Positions 6,586 through 63,489 of a stretch of 64,000 nucleotides of DNA are shown here, one piece after another. Origin of the DNA: Methanofollis sp. W23. Its GTDB lineage: Archaea; Halobacteriota; Methanomicrobia; Methanomicrobiales; Methanofollaceae. Both the position numbers and the translations under genes were made by a program. The notes below the pieces were generated by a model. It was not told the origin of the DNA, ran no database searches, and saw nothing but the letters and a program-made list of their open reading frames with translations. Numbering within the stretch: the first letter of the stretch is position 1; each line of letters opens with the position of its first letter. The stretch is taken from NCBI RefSeq assembly GCF_017875325.1, contig NZ_JAGGMN010000001.1:558001-622000 (forward strand). Direction: 5' to 3'.

Positions 6586-6760
6586 ATCTGATCGACGTGC
6601 CTTCCTCTATCACCCGCGCCGGGGGCGCGGCCCCCGGACCCCTGGGGATGAAGATAGGGCCGGGGAGGCATCGCCGACGATCCCGTAGAGGGAGTCGCCG
6701 TCCTCGGCCAATCGTGTAGCAGGGGGTCCGGGGGTGCACCCCCCCCGCCACAGAGAGACA
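6586..6760 (-). repeat. Family A repeat, reverse orientation
   Basis: The copy is the reverse complement of the canonical arrangement: CCTTCCTCTATC, a perfect 8-bp hairpin CCGGGGGC-GCG-GCCCCCGG (6619-6637), GATGAAGATAGGGCCGG, GCCGTCCTCGGCCAATCGTG and a GGGGGTGCACCCCCC block. It separates the two acyl-CoA synthetase genes. The rest of the gap (6407-6585, 6760-6947) holds degenerate repeat pieces and, near 6911, a TATA-like ACTATATC for the next gene. Confidence 0.7.
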
Positions 6761-10221: not shown

Positions 10222-10283
10222 GCCTGGGCCCTGTAGAATTGAACATGAACCCTGCGTGGGTTCAAGCATACGGGATGAAAATG
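10222..10283 (+). repeat. Family B hairpin repeat
   Basis: The order is GGGCCCTGTAGAATTGAACA, a hairpin TGAACCC-TGCG-TGGGTTCA, then AGCATACGGGATGAAAAT. The start shares the family A terminal sequence CCTGTAGAA. Confidence 0.7.
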
Positions 10284-12437: not shown

Positions 12438-12515
12438 CTGCTAATTCTTTCTGTTATGCAAGGTTAAATGCTCTGGGATCGCCGTGCGCCTGAAGAATAA
12501 AAGAGGTCGTCCCGG

Positions 12516-50216: not shown

Positions 50217-51272
50217 ATGAAGGCGGTTCTGGGTCTTGAAGACGGCGAATTCGTTGTCGGAGAGGGATTTGGTGTTGAAGGCTCCTGTTCCGGGGAACTG
50301 GTCTTCAGCACGCAGATGACCGGGTACATGGAAGCGCTGACCGATCCGAGTTATGCGGGTCAGCTCCTCATGTTCACCTATCCTCTCATCGGCAATTATG
50401 GCGTAGACCATGATAATTTTCAGGGTCCCGAGGTGTGTGCCCTCGGGTGCATTACACGGGAAGTGTGCACCCATCCGGCATCTCTTCCCTCACTCCCTGA
50501 CTATTTTGAAGAACACAATCTTTTTGGTATCACCGGCGTCGACACCCGGAAACTCACGATCAAGACAAGAGAGCACGGGACGATGCGGGCCGCCCTCATC
50601 GTCGGGAGCGACGACGGCGAAGAAGCGGTGCGGATGGCCCGCGCCGCCCCCGACATCGCGGCGACCGATCTGATCCCGCAGGTCTCCTGTGACGAACTCC
50701 TCCACCTCCCTGGCAAGGGCAAGCGGATCGCGATCATGGACCTTGGGATCAAGAAGAACATGGTGATCAGCCTTGCCAGGCGCGGCGCAGACCTCTACCT
50801 CTTCCCGCACGACGCCACGCCCGCAGAGATTGACGCATGCGAGCCCGAGGCCCTCTTCATCTCCAATGGCCCGGGGGACCCGCAGCGGGCGACCGGCGCC
50901 ATCAACGCCGTGAAACATTACCTGGGCGACCTGCCGGTCTTCGGGATCTGCATGGGCAACCAGGTGGCCGCCCTCGCCCTCGGCGGCGAGACCTACAAGA
51001 TGAAGTTCGGGCACCGCGGCTCGAACCAACCGGTCAGGCACATGGACGGACAGATCTACATCACCACGCAGAACCACGGGTTTGCAGTGGACGCCGGGAC
51101 CCTCCCTGAAGGGTGTCAGGTCGTCTACGAGAATGTCAACGACGGCAGCCTCGAAGGGTTCTGCGACGAGGACCTCAATCTCTTCTGCGTCCAGTTCCAC
51201 CCTGAGGCCCACGGCGGGCCGCACGATACTGAACGTCCTATCTTCGACCTGATGTACAGGAGGATCGTCTGA
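50217..51272 (+). CDS. carA: Carbamoyl-phosphate synthase small subunit
   Basis: The 351-residue glutaminase subunit delivers ammonia to CarB. The class I amidotransferase triad is Cys245 (FGICMGNQ), His328 and Glu330 (VQFHPEAHGGPHDT). The usual His of GICxGHQ is Asn248. The N-terminal domain (VFSTQMTGYMEALTDPSYAGQ) and QNHGFAVD are standard. The start is ATG 50217; TTAAAAAG at 50180 acts as a TATA box about 35 bases upstream and no Shine-Dalgarno is seen. Its stop overlaps carB as TGATG. Confidence 0.96.
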   Translation: MKAVLGLEDGEFVVGEGFGVEGSCSGELVFSTQMTGYMEALTDPSYAGQLLMFTYPLIGNYGVDHDNFQGPEVCALGCITREVCTHPASLPSLPDYFEEHNLFGITGVDTRKLTIKTREHGTMRAALIVGSDDGEEAVRMARAAPDIAATDLIPQVSCDELLHLPGKGKRIAIMDLGIKKNMVISLARRGADLYLFPHDATPAEIDACEPEALFISNGPGDPQRATGAINAVKHYLGDLPVFGICMGNQVAALALGGETYKMKFGHRGSNQPVRHMDGQIYITTQNHGFAVDAGTLPEGCQVVYENVNDGSLEGFCDEDLNLFCVQFHPEAHGGPHDTERPIFDLMYRRIV

Positions 51273-54200
51273 TGCCGCGCAACCCACAGATCAAGAAGGC
51301 GCTGCTCATCGGGTCGGGCCCTATCCAGATCGGGCAGGCGGCGGAGTTCGACTTCTCAGGCTCGCAGGCCTGCCGCGCCCTGCGCGAGGAGGGGGTCGAG
51401 GTGGTCCTGGTCAACTCCAACCCGGCGACCATCCAGACCGACCCCGAGATGGCCGAGAAGGTCTATATCGAGCCCTTGCAGCCGGAGATCATCGCGATGA
51501 TCATCGAGAAGGAGAAGCCCGACGGGATCCTCTCAGGGATGGGTGGCCAGACCGGGCTGAACTTAACGGCCGAACTTGCCGAGATGGGCGCCCTCGACGG
51601 CGTCGAGATCCTGGGCACGCCGCTCGAGGCGATCTACGAGGGGGAGGACCGCGAGAAGTTCAAAGATCTGATGAACCGGATCGACGAACCTGTCCCGAAG
51701 AGCATGATCCTCGAGCACATCGAGGACCTCGACAGGGCGCTCGACCTGGTCGGTCTCCCTGCGATCATCAGGCCTGCCTACACCCTCGGTGGTGCGGGCG
51801 GCGGGATCGCCCACACCGAGGAAGAACTCCGCCGGATCGTCGACGTCGGCCTCAACCGCTCGCGTATCCACCAGGTGCTCATCGAAGAGTCGGTGATGGG
51901 CTGGAAGGAGATCGAGTTTGAGGTGATGCGCGACGCCTCCGACACCTGCATCATCATCTGCGGGATGGAGAATGTCGACCCGATGGGCGTCCATACCGGC
52001 GAGTCGGTCGTCGTCGCCCCGATCCTCACCCTGCGCGACGACGAGTTCCAGATGATGCGTTCGGCGGCGATCAGGATCATCCGCGCCCTGGACGTGCAGG
52101 GCGGGTGCAACATCCAGTTCGCCTACAAAGACGGGGACTACCGGGTCATCGAGGTGAACCCGCGTGTCTCGCGTTCCTCGGCCCTTGCCTCCAAGGCGAC
52201 CGGCTACCCGATCGCGCGGGTGGCGGCCAAGATCGCCATCGGGTTGCGCCTCGACGAGATCACCAACCCGGTCACCGGCGTGACCCCGGCCTCGTTTGAA
52301 CCGGCCATCGACTATGTCGTCGTGAAGATCCCGAGGTGGCCCTTCGACAAGTTCAAGACCGCCGACCGGACGCTCACCACGGCGATGAAGTCGACCGGCG
52401 AGGTGATGGCCATCGGCCGCACCCTGGAAGAGGCCTTCAAGAAGGCGATGCGTTCGCTCGACACCGATGTGCGCGAGCACACCAATGCCAACGAGATCAG
52501 GATGATCCTCACCAGCCCCACCGACGAGCGTTTCGGCTGTCTCTTCGACGCCTTCAGGCAGGGGATGAGCGTGGAGGAGGTTGCCTCCCTCACCGGGATC
52601 ACGCCTTTCTTCCTGGAAAAGGTCAACCACATCGTCGAGATCGAGACGCAGCTCAGGGAGGAGAGGAGCGAGGAGGTCGTCAGGCTTGCCAAGAACTACG
52701 GGTTCTCCAACACCGAGATCGCCGCCCTCACCGGCATGGACCGGGCACAGGTCGACGAGATCGCCGGCAGGCCGACCTACAAGATGGTCGACACCTGCGC
52801 CGCCGAGTTCCCGGCACAGACGCCGTACCTCTACTCCACCTGGGAAGACGAGAACGAGGACCTCCATGACCCGCGCAAGAAGGTGCTCATCCTTGGCTCA
52901 GGCCCGATCAGGATCGGGCAGGGGATCGAGTTCGATTACTGCACCGTCCATGCGGTGAAGGCGGCGCGGGATGAGGGTGTTGCGGTCCACATTGTCAACA
53001 ACAACCCTGAGACGGTCTCCACCGACTTCGACACCTCCGACCGGCTCTTCTTCGAGCCGATGCAACTCGAGGACGTCGTCAACATCCTCATAAACGACGA
53101 CTACGACGGGGTGATGGTCCAGTTCGGCGGGCAGAACTCGGTGAACCTGGCCATCCCGATCGAGCAGGAGATCGCACGTCTCGGGCTCAAGACCAGGGTG
53201 CTCGGCACCTCGCCGGACGCCATGGACATGGCCGAGGACCGCGACCGGTTCAGCGTCCTCCTTGACAGACTCCAGATCCCCTCGGCCCCGAACGGCTCGG
53301 CCTACTCTGAGGACGAGGCACGGAGGATCGCCGACACTATCGGCTACCCGGTCCTGGTCAGGCCGAGTTATGTGCTCGGCGGACGGGCGATGGAGATCGT
53401 CCATGACGAGGTCGAACTGGACAGTTATATGAAGGAGGCGGTGCGGGTCTCGAAGCAGCACCCGGTGCTCATCGATCGTTTCCTCCAGAACGCCGTGGAA
53501 ATCGATGTGGACGCCGTCTGCGACGGGGACGAGGTGATCATCGGCGGGGTGATGGAGCATATCGAGGAGGCCGGGGTCCACTCAGGCGACTCGGCCTGCG
53601 TCATCCCGACCCAGTCCCTCTCGGCCTCGGTGACCGACCGGGTGAAGGATTACACCCGCAGGCTCGCCCTCGAGATGGGGGTCGTCGGGCTGATCAACAT
53701 CCAGTTCGCGGTCAAGGACGACGTCGTTTATGTGCTCGAAGCAAACCCGCGGGCCAGCAGGACCGTGCCCTTCGTCTCGAAGGCGACCGGGCTCCCGCTC
53801 GCGAAGATCGCCGCCAAGGTGATGATGGGGCGCAAACTCGCAGACCTCGGGTACGAGGAGCAGACCATCTCCCATGTGGCGGTCAAGGAAGTGCTCCTCC
53901 CGTTCAGCAAACTCCCTGGCGTCGACACCGTCCTCGGGCCCGAGATGAAGTCGACCGGCGAGGTGATGGGCCTGGACTACGACTTCGGTCGGGCCTATTA
54001 CAAGGCCTGTCTTGCGGCGGACAACGACCTCCCCCTGGAGGGCAATGTCTTCATCTCGGTCTCCGACGAGTTGAAGGAGTCGATCGTCCCGATTGCCAGG
54101 AAACTCCAGGCCCTCGGGCTGACCATCTACTGCACCGGCGGCACGGCCGAGTACCTCAGCCAGTCTGGGGTCGAGGTGAAGATGGTCAGGAAGGTCCAGG

Positions 54201-54439
54201 AGGGCTCGCCCAATGTCATCGACATGATGCGCAGAGGCGAGATCAGCCAGATCATCAACATCCCCTCAGACAAGCAGTCACGCCATGACCACTACACCAT
54301 CATGCGGGTGGCCATCGACTACTCGGTCCCGTACATCACCACCCTCTCGGCGGCCAAGGCGGCGACTGAGGCGATCGAGGTGATGAAGCACGAGGAGATC
54401 ACCATCGAGCCTCTGGACCACTATATCGAGAAGGCGTAA
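51272..54439 (+). CDS. carB: Carbamoyl-phosphate synthase large subunit
   Basis: The 1055-residue enzyme makes carbamoyl phosphate from bicarbonate, ammonia and two ATP for pyrimidine and arginine synthesis. The two homologous ATP-grasp halves are visible: GSGPIQIGQAAEFDFSG at residue ~14 and GSGPIRIGQGIEFDYC near 549, with PAYTLGGAGGGIA and PSYVLGGRAMEIV as phosphate loops. The C-terminal MGS-like allosteric domain (VFISVSDELKESIVPIARKL...IINIPSD) is present. Full length for the family. It forms an operon with carA and ends with a T-tract. Confidence 0.97.
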   Translation: MPRNPQIKKALLIGSGPIQIGQAAEFDFSGSQACRALREEGVEVVLVNSNPATIQTDPEMAEKVYIEPLQPEIIAMIIEKEKPDGILSGMGGQTGLNLTAELAEMGALDGVEILGTPLEAIYEGEDREKFKDLMNRIDEPVPKSMILEHIEDLDRALDLVGLPAIIRPAYTLGGAGGGIAHTEEELRRIVDVGLNRSRIHQVLIEESVMGWKEIEFEVMRDASDTCIIICGMENVDPMGVHTGESVVVAPILTLRDDEFQMMRSAAIRIIRALDVQGGCNIQFAYKDGDYRVIEVNPRVSRSSALASKATGYPIARVAAKIAIGLRLDEITNPVTGVTPASFEPAIDYVVVKIPRWPFDKFKTADRTLTTAMKSTGEVMAIGRTLEEAFKKAMRSLDTDVREHTNANEIRMILTSPTDERFGCLFDAFRQGMSVEEVASLTGITPFFLEKVNHIVEIETQLREERSEEVVRLAKNYGFSNTEIAALTGMDRAQVDEIAGRPTYKMVDTCAAEFPAQTPYLYSTWEDENEDLHDPRKKVLILGSGPIRIGQGIEFDYCTVHAVKAARDEGVAVHIVNNNPETVSTDFDTSDRLFFEPMQLEDVVNILINDDYDGVMVQFGGQNSVNLAIPIEQEIARLGLKTRVLGTSPDAMDMAEDRDRFSVLLDRLQIPSAPNGSAYSEDEARRIADTIGYPVLVRPSYVLGGRAMEIVHDEVELDSYMKEAVRVSKQHPVLIDRFLQNAVEIDVDAVCDGDEVIIGGVMEHIEEAGVHSGDSACVIPTQSLSASVTDRVKDYTRRLALEMGVVGLINIQFAVKDDVVYVLEANPRASRTVPFVSKATGLPLAKIAAKVMMGRKLADLGYEEQTISHVAVKEVLLPFSKLPGVDTVLGPEMKSTGEVMGLDYDFGRAYYKACLAADNDLPLEGNVFISVSDELKESIVPIARKLQALGLTIYCTGGTAEYLSQSGVEVKMVRKVQEGSPNVIDMMRRGEISQIINIPSDKQSRHDHYTIMRVAIDYSVPYITTLSAAKAATEAIEVMKHEEITIEPLDHYIEKA

Positions 54440-54753: not shown

Positions 54754-54872
54754 GGCCCTGTAGAAACCCTTGCCAATTCTCGGTGCGAGCGCGATTCACC
54801 CGCCTTCCCCTATCTTCTTGCCGGGGGCGGCACGCCCCCCCGTCTGAGAGACTCATCAAGAGGATTTACCAT
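54754..54872 (+). repeat. Family A fragment
   Basis: It opens GGCCCTGTAGAAACCCTT and then has CACCCGCCTTCCCCTATCTT, GCCGGGGGCGGCACGCCCCC and CTCATCAAGAGGATTTAC. Confidence 0.6.
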
Positions 54873-55145: not shown

Positions 55146-55548
55146 TGAATCTGATCTTATGCTCAACGATCCTTCGGGAACTTTGAGGGCCTGGCATTCG
55201 CCTCCCTGAGCATCTCATCGGGAAGACTGAAGATAGACACCGAAGACAAAATCTTCACGGTGCACGATAGCGGAGAGGAATCTATTATCAGGGCGGAACA
55301 TCTGATCAGCATGTCTATCTCATTCATCCCTGGCCAAGGAGGAATGGTCCCCGGACCCCCGGGATGGAGATAGGAGGGGCAAGGTGAATACATGATCCTG
55401 AAAGGCGGGAGTGGCCCTCTGCCTCTCGCTCACGCGGTCGTCCTCACCTGATCATGGGGCAGGTGCGACCGAAGAGAACTTGAGATGATCGTGATCTTTG
55501 GAGGAGCCCCAGGCAAATGTATGAGGCTTTTTAGACGTCCGGAAAAAA

Positions 55549-55781
55549 GGCTCTGTAGAGATCCTCGTGATGAATCTCTCTGTCGGGGGGCTTGGCCGCC
55601 CCCCGAACCCCCCCGCCACACGATAGGTCGAGGACGGCAGCACTCTCTTGATGGTCATCTATTCTGCCTTCCGACCCTATCGTGGTCCCAGGGGTCCGGG
55701 AGCCCTGCCCCCGGTCAAAGGGGCGGGAAGGCGGGTGACACACATCTCCCCCACACAGAAGGTGAGGGATTCTACAGAGCC
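55549..55781 (+). repeat. Family A repeat, complete best-preserved copy
   Basis: The 233-bp unit has terminal inverted repeats GGCTCTGTAGAGATCCTC (55549-55566) and GAGGGATTCTACAGAGCC (55764-55781). Inside are the hairpin CGGGGGGC-TTGGCC-GCCCCCCG (55584-55605), then CACACGATAGGTCGAGGACG, which can pair with CGACCCTATCGTGG further on, then GGGGTCCGGGAGCCCTGCCC and GGGAAGGCGGGTGACACACA. No coding frame of note. A-rich runs flank both ends. Confidence 0.88.
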
Positions 55782-55782
55782 A

Positions 55783-55800
55783 GAAAAAAAGAAAAAAAGT
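55783..55800 (-). terminator. T-tract terminator of FMN-binding protein gene
   Basis: Two runs of seven T residues on the minus strand directly follow the stop at 55801. Confidence 0.6.
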
Positions 55801-56205
55801 TCAGAGCAGTTTATCGCCGGCCTCAGGACCGGGGGCGCAGGTGTAGACGTCGGTGATCTTGACCGCCAGCAGGTTCTTGGCCGGGGCCTTGGACATCTTC
55901 GAGAGGACGACCTCGCGCATCTTCTGGAAGTCTTCGCCCTCTGAGACGACCTTCACGTCGCCCTTGATCTGGAAGCACCCCTTGATCTCAGGCCCCCACA
56001 GATAGAGCGAGAGCTTCGGGTTCTCCTTGACATTGGCAAGGGTCTTTTTCATGAAATTGTCCGCGATCCAGATCGTCTCGTCGTCGACGAGCATGCAAAA
56101 GCCGATCGGCACGACATTGGGGACGCCGTCCTTGGATGCAGTGGCCACCGGGAAGGTTTTTACCTTTGAAAAGGCCTCTTTCATCTCTTCATTCAGTTTT
56201 ACCAT
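55801..56205 (-). CDS. Pyridoxamine 5'-phosphate oxidase-like FMN-binding protein
   Basis: The 134-residue protein has the split-barrel pattern: KTFPVATASKDGVPNVVPIGF, DDETIWIADNFMKKTLANVKENPKLSLYLW and the KGCFQIKGDVKVVSEGEDF strands. Such small proteins bind FMN or F420 as dimers; the reaction is unknown. ATG 56205 is chosen since GGGTGATCACC precedes it. It is divergent from the winged-helix gene and may be its target or partner (inference). Confidence 0.88.
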   Translation of the reverse strand: MVKLNEEMKEAFSKVKTFPVATASKDGVPNVVPIGFCMLVDDETIWIADNFMKKTLANVKENPKLSLYLWGPEIKGCFQIKGDVKVVSEGEDFQKMREVVLSKMSKAPAKNLLAVKITDVYTCAPGPEAGDKLL

Positions 56206-56267
56206 GGTGATCACCCTTTCTATTGAATTCAGCAGATATATACCTGCGTGTTAGAAAACTATACTTC

Positions 56268-60615: not shown

Positions 60616-63489
60616 ATGATGAGAAGTATCTCCGCGGCCGGAAGATCCCGGCCGGGAAAGTATCGACCAGCGGCTGCCGTCGTGATCGTGATCGTCGCCC
60701 TGCTTGCCCTGACAGGCATTGCAGCAGGCGTGGAGATCCCGGAAGAGCGCTGGCGGACGACCTATGACTCGGGCTACAACGACTACGGATATGCGCTCCA
60801 GATGACCAATGAGAGCGATTTTGTTCTTGCAGGGAAGGTGCAGAACGGATCGACCAGCGACATGCTGCTGCTGAAGACCGACAGGAACGGCACACTGCTC
60901 TGGAACCAGACCTACGACTATGCCGGATATGACACCGCACATGCCGTGAAGGAGACCCCAGACGGGGGCTATATCCTCGGGGGCTTTGGGCTCATCGATA
61001 TGACATATGCATCGATCGACGGGGCGATGATGGTCAGGACCGATGAGAACGGCAGCGTGCTCTGGACCGGGCCGACCGGGAACGTGAGTCCGACCTGGGA
61101 GGCGGTCCAGGACGTTGCCGTCTGTGAAGACGGAGGGTTTGTCCTGACCGGCAGGGACAACCCGTCGGCCGCGCCGAATGCCGCATATCTCGTGAAAACC
61201 AACGAGACCGGCGGCGTGGAGTGGACGAACGGCTACATGAGAGACATCGACGACACCGGATTCTCGGTCCTGCAGACCGATGAGGGGGACTATGTCTTTG
61301 CCGGGATCTCGGCCGACATAATCAATGGGACGACCGATGCCTTCCTCAGGAAGGCCGACGCCAACGGGACGTTGATCTGGGAGCGCTACTACCCCGCGAG
61401 TGAGATGAACTGGACCTCGCAGGGTGCCGAAGGCGACTTCTGGACGGTGAAGGCGGTCCCGACTGCCGACGGGGGCTATGCCGTCGCGGGCAGGGTCGTC
61501 TTTGAAAAACCCGACACTGCCGCCGCCGCCCTGATCAAGACCGACGCCGAGGGACAGGTCGAGTGGTCCAGGGCCTATACTTCGTGTTCAGATACATTCT
61601 GGGCTGAGGATCTCGTCGAGAGACCAGAAGGCGGGTTTATCCTTGCATGCCACTGCGACCCGCCGGCAAACCCGCAGAACGCCATCTCTCTCATCGCAAC
61701 CGATGACACCGGCGAGATCGAATGGCGCGACTTCTACACCATCGGTCCGTTCGAGAACGACCCGCACGCCATCGTCGCAACCGGGGACGGCGGATATGCG
61801 ATCGGAGGCGAGGCCGGGATCTGCGAGAACCCGGCAGACATCACGAACTGCACGCTCGACGCCTTTATCCTCAGGCTCGGACCCAGAGAACCGCCGGCGC
61901 CAGGGCCTGGACCCGCACCTCAACCGTCGTTGAACGCCGACTTCAAGGCCTTCCCGCGGAGCGGAGTCGCACCACTGGAAGTGGCGTTCACCGACCTCTC
62001 GACCGGGTCGCCGACCTCGTGGGCATGGGACTTTGGCGATGGGACCGGGTCGACGGCACAGTTCCCGACACACACCTACACGAAACCAGGCACCTACACG
62101 GTTTCCCTGACCATCTCTGACGGGACTTCGGCCGACACCGAGAGGAAGGTCGGGTACATCACGGTCTCTGCAGAAGAACTCAAGGCGAATCTCTCCTTTG
62201 TCCCGAGAGAGGCGGAGGTAACCGAGGGGGAGAACACCACCTATGATGTCGTGATGGACCGGGCCGAGGAGGGGATCGCCTTCTACTACATGGACATCGA
62301 CCTCACCGACCCGGCGGTCGCCGAGATCGTGGATGTCGAGATGCCCGCCTGGGTAAAGTCCGGTCCTCTGGTCTCGCCGCTGCCGGCAGACTCGGTCCAG
62401 CTCTCAGGGATCAAGGGGGTCACTGATCCTGGCAAAGAGAACATCACGCTCTGCACCCTGACGGTCCGCGGCGACCTGGAAGGCCAGACTGATCTTGCCG
62501 TCGGGGAGGCGCGGGTCCTGAGCCCGGTCCTGAACGAGTACCTGCTCACCGCCGGTACCGGGAGCCTCAATGTCACACCCAGTGATTTTGACGCAAACTT
62601 CACGGCCGATCCACTGAACGGCACCGCACCGCTTGAGGTGAACTTCACCGACACTTCGGTCGGGTCACCGACAGCATGGTTCTGGGAGTTCGGCGACGGG
62701 GACACCTCGACCGAGCAGAACCCGGCCCATGAGTATGCGGAGCCTGGGCTCTACACCGTGATCCTGACGATCTCTGACGGGACGAAGACCGACGCCGAGA
62801 CAAAGGCGGACTACATCGAGGTCACCGCCGCACCATCGGTCCTGGCCGCGAACTTCACGGCCGATCCACTGAACGGCACTGCACCGCTTGAGGTGAGCTT
62901 CACCGATCTCTCCGAGGGCCCGGTGACCTCGTGGTTCTGGGAGTTCGGCGACGGGGACACCTCGACCGAGCAGAACCCGACTCACGAATATGCGGAGCCT
63001 GGGCTCTACTCCGTGGTCCTGACGGTCTCTGACGGGACCGAGACCGACGCAAAGGTAGAGGCCGACTACATCAATGTCACCGCCGCACCATCGGTCCTGG
63101 CCGCGAACTTCACGGCCGAGCCGCGGAGCGGCACCACGCCCTTGAGCGTGGGCTTCACCGACCTCTCCGAGGGCCCGGTGACCTCGTGGTTCTGGGAGTT
63201 CGGTGACGGGGACACCTCGACCGAGCAGAACCCGACTCACGAATATGCAGAGCCTGGGCTCTACTCCGTGGTCCTGACGGTCTCTGACGGGACCGAGACC
63301 GACGCAAAGGTAGAGGCCGACTACATCGAGGTCACACCTGAAGAAGAGAGTACTCCAGAGGAAGAAGAGGAACTGACGCCAGAGGAGGAAGAGGAAGAGG
63401 TCACACCTGAAGAAGAGAGTACTCCAGAGGAAGACGAAGAGGAACTGACACCAGAGGAGGAAGAGGCCGCGCCTGAAGAGACGACCTAA
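60616..63489 (+). CDS. Secreted protein: propeller-like repeats, cohesin-like domain, four PKD domains
   Basis: The 957-residue protein has an N-terminal signal/anchor (~17-37), propeller-like repeats as in the preceding gene (~40-430), PKD 1 (~438-517), a cohesin-like beta domain (~518-652, with EVTEGENTTYDVVMDRAEEG and FYYMDIDLTDP), PKD 2-4 (~654-907), and an acidic TPEEE-repeat tail (907-957). Each PKD has the WxFGDG or WEFGDGDTS and HEYAEPGLYSV motifs. PKD 3 and PKD 4 are almost identical. No membrane helix follows the tail, so attachment must be by other means. Surface adhesion or cell-cell contact is the likely role (family knowledge). GGAGGGGGG precedes ATG 60616. Confidence 0.88.
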   Translation: MMRSISAAGRSRPGKYRPAAAVVIVIVALLALTGIAAGVEIPEERWRTTYDSGYNDYGYALQMTNESDFVLAGKVQNGSTSDMLLLKTDRNGTLLWNQTYDYAGYDTAHAVKETPDGGYILGGFGLIDMTYASIDGAMMVRTDENGSVLWTGPTGNVSPTWEAVQDVAVCEDGGFVLTGRDNPSAAPNAAYLVKTNETGGVEWTNGYMRDIDDTGFSVLQTDEGDYVFAGISADIINGTTDAFLRKADANGTLIWERYYPASEMNWTSQGAEGDFWTVKAVPTADGGYAVAGRVVFEKPDTAAAALIKTDAEGQVEWSRAYTSCSDTFWAEDLVERPEGGFILACHCDPPANPQNAISLIATDDTGEIEWRDFYTIGPFENDPHAIVATGDGGYAIGGEAGICENPADITNCTLDAFILRLGPREPPAPGPGPAPQPSLNADFKAFPRSGVAPLEVAFTDLSTGSPTSWAWDFGDGTGSTAQFPTHTYTKPGTYTVSLTISDGTSADTERKVGYITVSAEELKANLSFVPREAEVTEGENTTYDVVMDRAEEGIAFYYMDIDLTDPAVAEIVDVEMPAWVKSGPLVSPLPADSVQLSGIKGVTDPGKENITLCTLTVRGDLEGQTDLAVGEARVLSPVLNEYLLTAGTGSLNVTPSDFDANFTADPLNGTAPLEVNFTDTSVGSPTAWFWEFGDGDTSTEQNPAHEYAEPGLYTVILTISDGTKTDAETKADYIEVTAAPSVLAANFTADPLNGTAPLEVSFTDLSEGPVTSWFWEFGDGDTSTEQNPTHEYAEPGLYSVVLTVSDGTETDAKVEADYINVTAAPSVLAANFTAEPRSGTTPLSVGFTDLSEGPVTSWFWEFGDGDTSTEQNPTHEYAEPGLYSVVLTVSDGTETDAKVEADYIEVTPEEESTPEEEEELTPEEEEEEVTPEEESTPEEDEEELTPEEEEAAPEETT

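Follow-up and report, generated by a model that had tools for sequence, protein, structure and literature searches.

Conserved GC hairpins within a palindromic MITE with IS5-type ends in Methanofollis

Why should a short stretch of archaeal DNA keep the stems of two GC hairpins, and of a long-range stem between them, while its loops change from copy to copy? The question was raised by positions 55584–55740 of the window, by which we mean the whole 64,000-nucleotide stretch of the Methanofollis sp. W23 genome analysed here, where a first-pass annotation had read the retention of stems with variation of loops as selection on structure, in DNA or in RNA. The structural features it described are all in place, but the extent given was too small: the stretch is only the interior of a complete 233-bp element (55549–55781, + strand), a member of the miniature inverted-repeat elements (MITEs) that we call family A, delimited by an alignment of ~40 copies and by 8-bp target-site duplications (TSDs). 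We consider it probable (roughly 0.87) that the stretch lies inside a palindromic MITE with IS5-type ends, mobilised in trans, and that its fold is a consequence of its inverted-repeat anatomy.

The window copy is bounded by the terminal inverted repeats (TIRs) GGCTCTGTAGAGATCCTC (55549–55566, + strand) and, on the − strand, its counterpart at 55764–55781 (GAGGGATTCTACAGAGCC when read on the + strand). Immediately outside them lie the TSDs GGAAAAAA (55541–55548) and AGAAAAAA (55782–55789), which agree at 7 of 8 bases, 8 bp being the rule in this family. The copy sits between carB (51272–54439, + strand) and a PNPOx-domain gene (55801–56214, − strand), both directed toward it, and our home-made gene caller placed no confident gene across it. 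The same boundaries recur elsewhere in the genome: in the alignment of own-genome copies similarity reaches the TIRs GGCTCTGTAGAAATCCTC and GAGGGTTTCTACAGAGCC and ceases beyond, the 18-bp repeats GGCTCTGTAGAAAYCCTC are found at both ends of most copies, and copies with TIRs are about 230–237 bp long. Among 100 copies having both ends, the 8-bp TSD is exact in 42 and has at most one mismatch in 59, against 1.8 expected from shuffled pairs; in the same 100 copies, lengths of 5–7 and 9–11 bp gave no comparable excess. The duplicated bases are mostly AT-rich (mean 0.72 AT), and such 8-bp duplications outside the TIRs are the signature of transposition. A search of the own genome returned 42 similar stretches, or 46 with an extended query (about 45 copies), and the end motif, allowing up to two mismatches, has ~600 matches there compared with 0 in a reversed-pattern control; therefore, several element families in this genome probably have these ends in common. 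With its TIRs, its TSD of fixed length, its ~230 bp free of any transposase gene, its many dispersed copies, and ends and TSD length common to an autonomous insertion sequence (IS) of a sister species, the element counts as a MITE with IS5-type ends, an ordinary mobile element of a previously known class.

Within these ends, all on the + strand, lies the fold that first drew attention. The 5' GC hairpin H1 (CGGGGGGC-TTGGCC-GCCCCCCG, an 8-bp stem with a 6-nt loop) is present at 55584–55605, and, in full agreement with the annotation, the copies at 6619, 8988, 44135 and 48238 have a perfect 3' hairpin H2 (CCGGGGGC-NNN-GCCCCCGG); the H2 pattern has five matches, against 0.02 expected in shuffles, and the window element's own H2 (55696–55714), CCGGGAGC-CCT-GCCCCCGG, carries one mismatch. 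We could also confirm the long-range stem, in which CACGATAGGTCG (55619–55630) pairs with CGACCCTATCGTG (55672–55684) with one bulged C. The motif GCCTTCC (55666–55672) can pair either in this stem or with GGAAGGC downstream (55726–55732), as indicated by the RNAalifold consensus and by pair counts, and the alternative stem encloses H2 and competes with the first. Folding the full element gives −118 kcal/mol (z = −4.81), a stability reached by none of 200 shuffles. The consensus of 133 copies is, from end to end, a single imperfect palindrome (−132 kcal/mol, RNAalifold): once reverse-complemented, the right half aligns with the left save for an insertion of ~40 nt in the right arm, reverse-strand self-matches span model positions 1–174, and the layout is one of two arms of ~90–100 bp around an apex of ~25 nt. 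H1 and H2 are each self-complementary, and are complementary to one another across the element as well. The hairpins and the long-range stem are thus parts of a foldback that takes in the entire element, and would be consequences of its anatomy.

Is base pairing itself under selection? The test that had been proposed, covariation among aligned copies, was carried out on 133 copies from seven genomes with our own implementation and not with R-scape, on an assumed tree, although copies may have recombined. Its outcome was negative, with no covariation above the phylogenetic background in any helix, and thus, of the original observation, loop variation with stem retention stands and the selection on pairing drawn from it is not supported. 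When every pair of columns was ranked by an APC-corrected G-test against a tree-based null, none of the pairs in these 133 copies reached E < 0.05, and the strongest signals fell in the variable right-hand module (columns 190–207) and mostly did not form pairs. For whole helices, the null moved changes to branches with the same clade size; an earlier null was dropped because it overplaced changes on deep branches, so that all helices, even the alternative pairing, seemed significant. The Watson-Crick fraction was 0.888 in H1 versus 0.874 under the null (p = 0.02, uncorrected for nine helices), 0.891 versus 0.888 in H2, 0.789 versus 0.756 in the long stem (p = 0.20) and 0.877 versus 0.872 in the GCCTTCC stem, and double changes were without clear excess over the null, H1 being borderline (8 cells versus 3.2, p = 0.05). 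Simulated power at 10% compensation was 0.95 for H1 and 1.00 for H2; for the long stem it was 0.26, and 0.90 at 30% compensation. Shuffles blind to relatedness do give an apparent excess (26 versus 11.6 cells). It comes mainly from two long-stem pairs, 74/146 and 76/144 of that alignment, which represent one old subfamily split, with GAAG/CTTC in two of the genomes (G001 and G004) and CACG/CGTG in most copies of the own genome (G000) and of G007. The unpaired intermediate CACG/CTTC occurs in 14 copies (9 and 5) and, since it has multiplied, strong selection on the long stem is disfavoured.

The GC stems are, nevertheless, slow. Per column, these stems have 6.1 terminal changes compared with 9.2 in the internal GC columns elsewhere (p = 0.0004 by permutation), and the two loops have 8.6 and 18.0; on internal branches the H1/H2 stem columns show 1.2 changes versus 4.0 in those other GC columns, their rates being near those of the TIRs. 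Pure descent with uniform mutation fails to explain this difference, which supports a constraint on the sequence of the stems or else an effect of mutation or of alignment in runs of G/C; a structure is not demonstrated by it. It is possible, though we would not expect it, that efficient mobility needs the GC hairpins as internal sites of specific sequence, serving the transposase, a host factor or the extrusion of DNA hairpins, and that the copies retaining them multiplied. The low rates fit such sites, as does the conservation of the GC hairpins across species consensuses whose overall identity is only ~75%, but compensation is absent, the rates may have the other origin just mentioned, and two copies (L031 and L032) lack much or all of H1 and yet keep clear TIRs, in L032 together with a perfect TSD, so that either H1 is not essential or these copies lost it once inserted. 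More tentatively still, the stems could be a second, internal recognition feature, read as sequence or as an extruded DNA hairpin, either during transposition or by a DNA-binding protein of the host; if true, such a role would explain why they are nearly as slow as the ends in species that differ by ~25% elsewhere.

Arm-to-arm copying, by template switching at quasi-palindromes, would keep the arms alike in the absence of selection. A single template switch could make two pairs complementary at once, which is what the step from CACG/CTTC to CACG/CGTG does, but this is the single clear event and overall pairing equals the independent-change null, and we regard such copying as a doubtful account of the likeness of the arms.

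As for RNA, selection on a single strand should favour G-T mispairs, but in the helices these do not exceed A-C mispairs, the two kinds being about equally common (for instance 0.027 and 0.042, respectively, in H1; 0.031 and 0.033 in H2). Gene contexts, taken for 40 copies from our simple home-made caller, are almost all intergenic, with 15 convergent, 8 divergent and 17 tandem settings, and the tandem copies are oriented 9 versus 8, without strand bias relative to the genes. Selection at the RNA level is thus unsupported on both counts, and Rfam returned no match in the element, finding nothing but tRNA in the window. That the element encodes a structured RNA (a small RNA, an attenuator or a terminator), with its pairing kept by selection on the transcript, is therefore very improbable: the very stable fold, stems that change more slowly than loops, the two mutually exclusive pairings of GCCTTCC and the double changes in excess of relatedness-blind shuffles would all suit it, but they are met by the lack of covariation at a power of at least 0.95 (10% compensation, H1 and H2), by the origin of most double changes in one subfamily split with an unpaired intermediate, and by the mispairs, the even orientation and the Rfam result.

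What, then, could have moved a MITE with IS5-type ends? A search with PF01609, followed by inspection of the ends, identified in a sister species (G004) a 1008-bp IS, at the locus L176, with the ends GGCTCTGTAGAATTCC and GGCCCTGTAGAAACCC and the perfect TSD GAACAATC. Its one 305-aa transposase passes the cut-off of the IS5 family (NCBIfam NF033579, transpos_IS5_2; 237 bits, cut-off 140). G004 and G011 carry intact homologues of this transposase and several other species carry fragments; in the own genome none was found at E ≤ 0.001. The MITE and this IS are alike only in ~12–18 terminal bases, and the parentage therefore rests on the ends and on the length of the TSD. Among other candidate parent families, no transposase of IS1595 or of ISL3 was found in the genus, nor one of IS6 (PF13610) in the own genome, the sole genome searched for it. 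We propose that an IS5-family DDE transposase, acting in trans, mobilised the short non-coding element; this enzyme would recognise GGCTCTGTAGAA ends and duplicate 8 bp of target, mostly AT-rich, and the actual mobiliser was presumably an IS of the L176 type or an extinct cousin. For the copies of the window genome, we infer an IS of the L176 type that is now absent there, since no homologue was found in that genome. The GC hairpins and the long-range stem would have been inherited from master copies through the inverted-repeat anatomy, and the palindrome may itself stem from an inverted duplication.

Several repeats depart from this plan or lie beside it. At window position 54865 (− strand) and at four other loci (L013, L022, L033 and L048), the end TTTTCATGGTAAA stands in the same register instead of the usual TIR. 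L005 (1144–1697) is a family-A copy into which, inside the left end, extra DNA has been inserted: its TIR-to-TIR distance is 554 bp, and its 8-bp duplication, GAATTTTC, is perfect. Between H2 and the right TIR (alignment columns 184–214; about 55733–55763 in the window), the subfamilies differ in carrying at least three versions of the segment that are unrelated to one another, which suggests modular exchange among them. A second repeat family, GGGCATGAACC...GGTTCAAGCATACGGGATGA, is present at window positions 10241, 10573, 10774, 12524 and 54522, and its end GGTTCTGTAGAATCAGGCATGAAC, at 12514, matches those of an IS5_3 element of 1488 bp in L194; this too is probably a MITE family, one that belongs to a different IS5 group. 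The window also contains, at 61935–63356 within an ORF of 957 aa (60616–63489), tandem 255-nt repeats followed by Glu-rich short repeats.

Matches to the element occur in all 12 Methanofollis genomes searched (about 73–90% identity for the longer matches), and in the rest of the order 1 of 187 genomes has a match, a marginal one; the exact motif matches all carry Methanofollis in their organism titles. An identical, TIR-like 30-mer, GGTTCTGTAGAAATCCTCTATCTGGTRTTT, is shared by five viral contigs (L169–L173). As matches to the TIR these were rejected, the 30-mer being unrelated and having no partner end. In the literature searched, we found no paper connecting Methanofollis with miniature inverted-repeat elements. 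Since the genus has TIR-bearing copies by the hundred, and since live IS5 relatives were found in two of its species but not in others, it lends itself to the study of how archaeal MITEs spread and outlast their transposase. A mobile element would thus account for a striking set of conserved archaeal hairpins, and the case provides a worked test of the distinction between loop variation with stem retention, on the one hand, and covariation, on the other.

The element has the general character of the prokaryotic MITEs, being short, non-coding, multicopy and intergenic, with TIRs, TSDs and a predicted stable stem-loop; however, prokaryotic MITEs are typically AT-rich, and the Methanofollis element differs from them in its GC-rich and nearly full-length palindromic interior (PMC10969869). 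With the IS5 family it shares the GGCTCTGTAGAA ends and the 8-bp TSD, as in the 1008-bp IS, but it has no transposase and only the ends are in common. Palindromes of the ERIC/REP type are likewise intergenic, imperfect and of high copy number. In contrast to these, the Methanofollis element has clear TIRs and 8-bp TSDs, and its candidate partner is, by its ends, of the IS5 type and not of the RAYT type.
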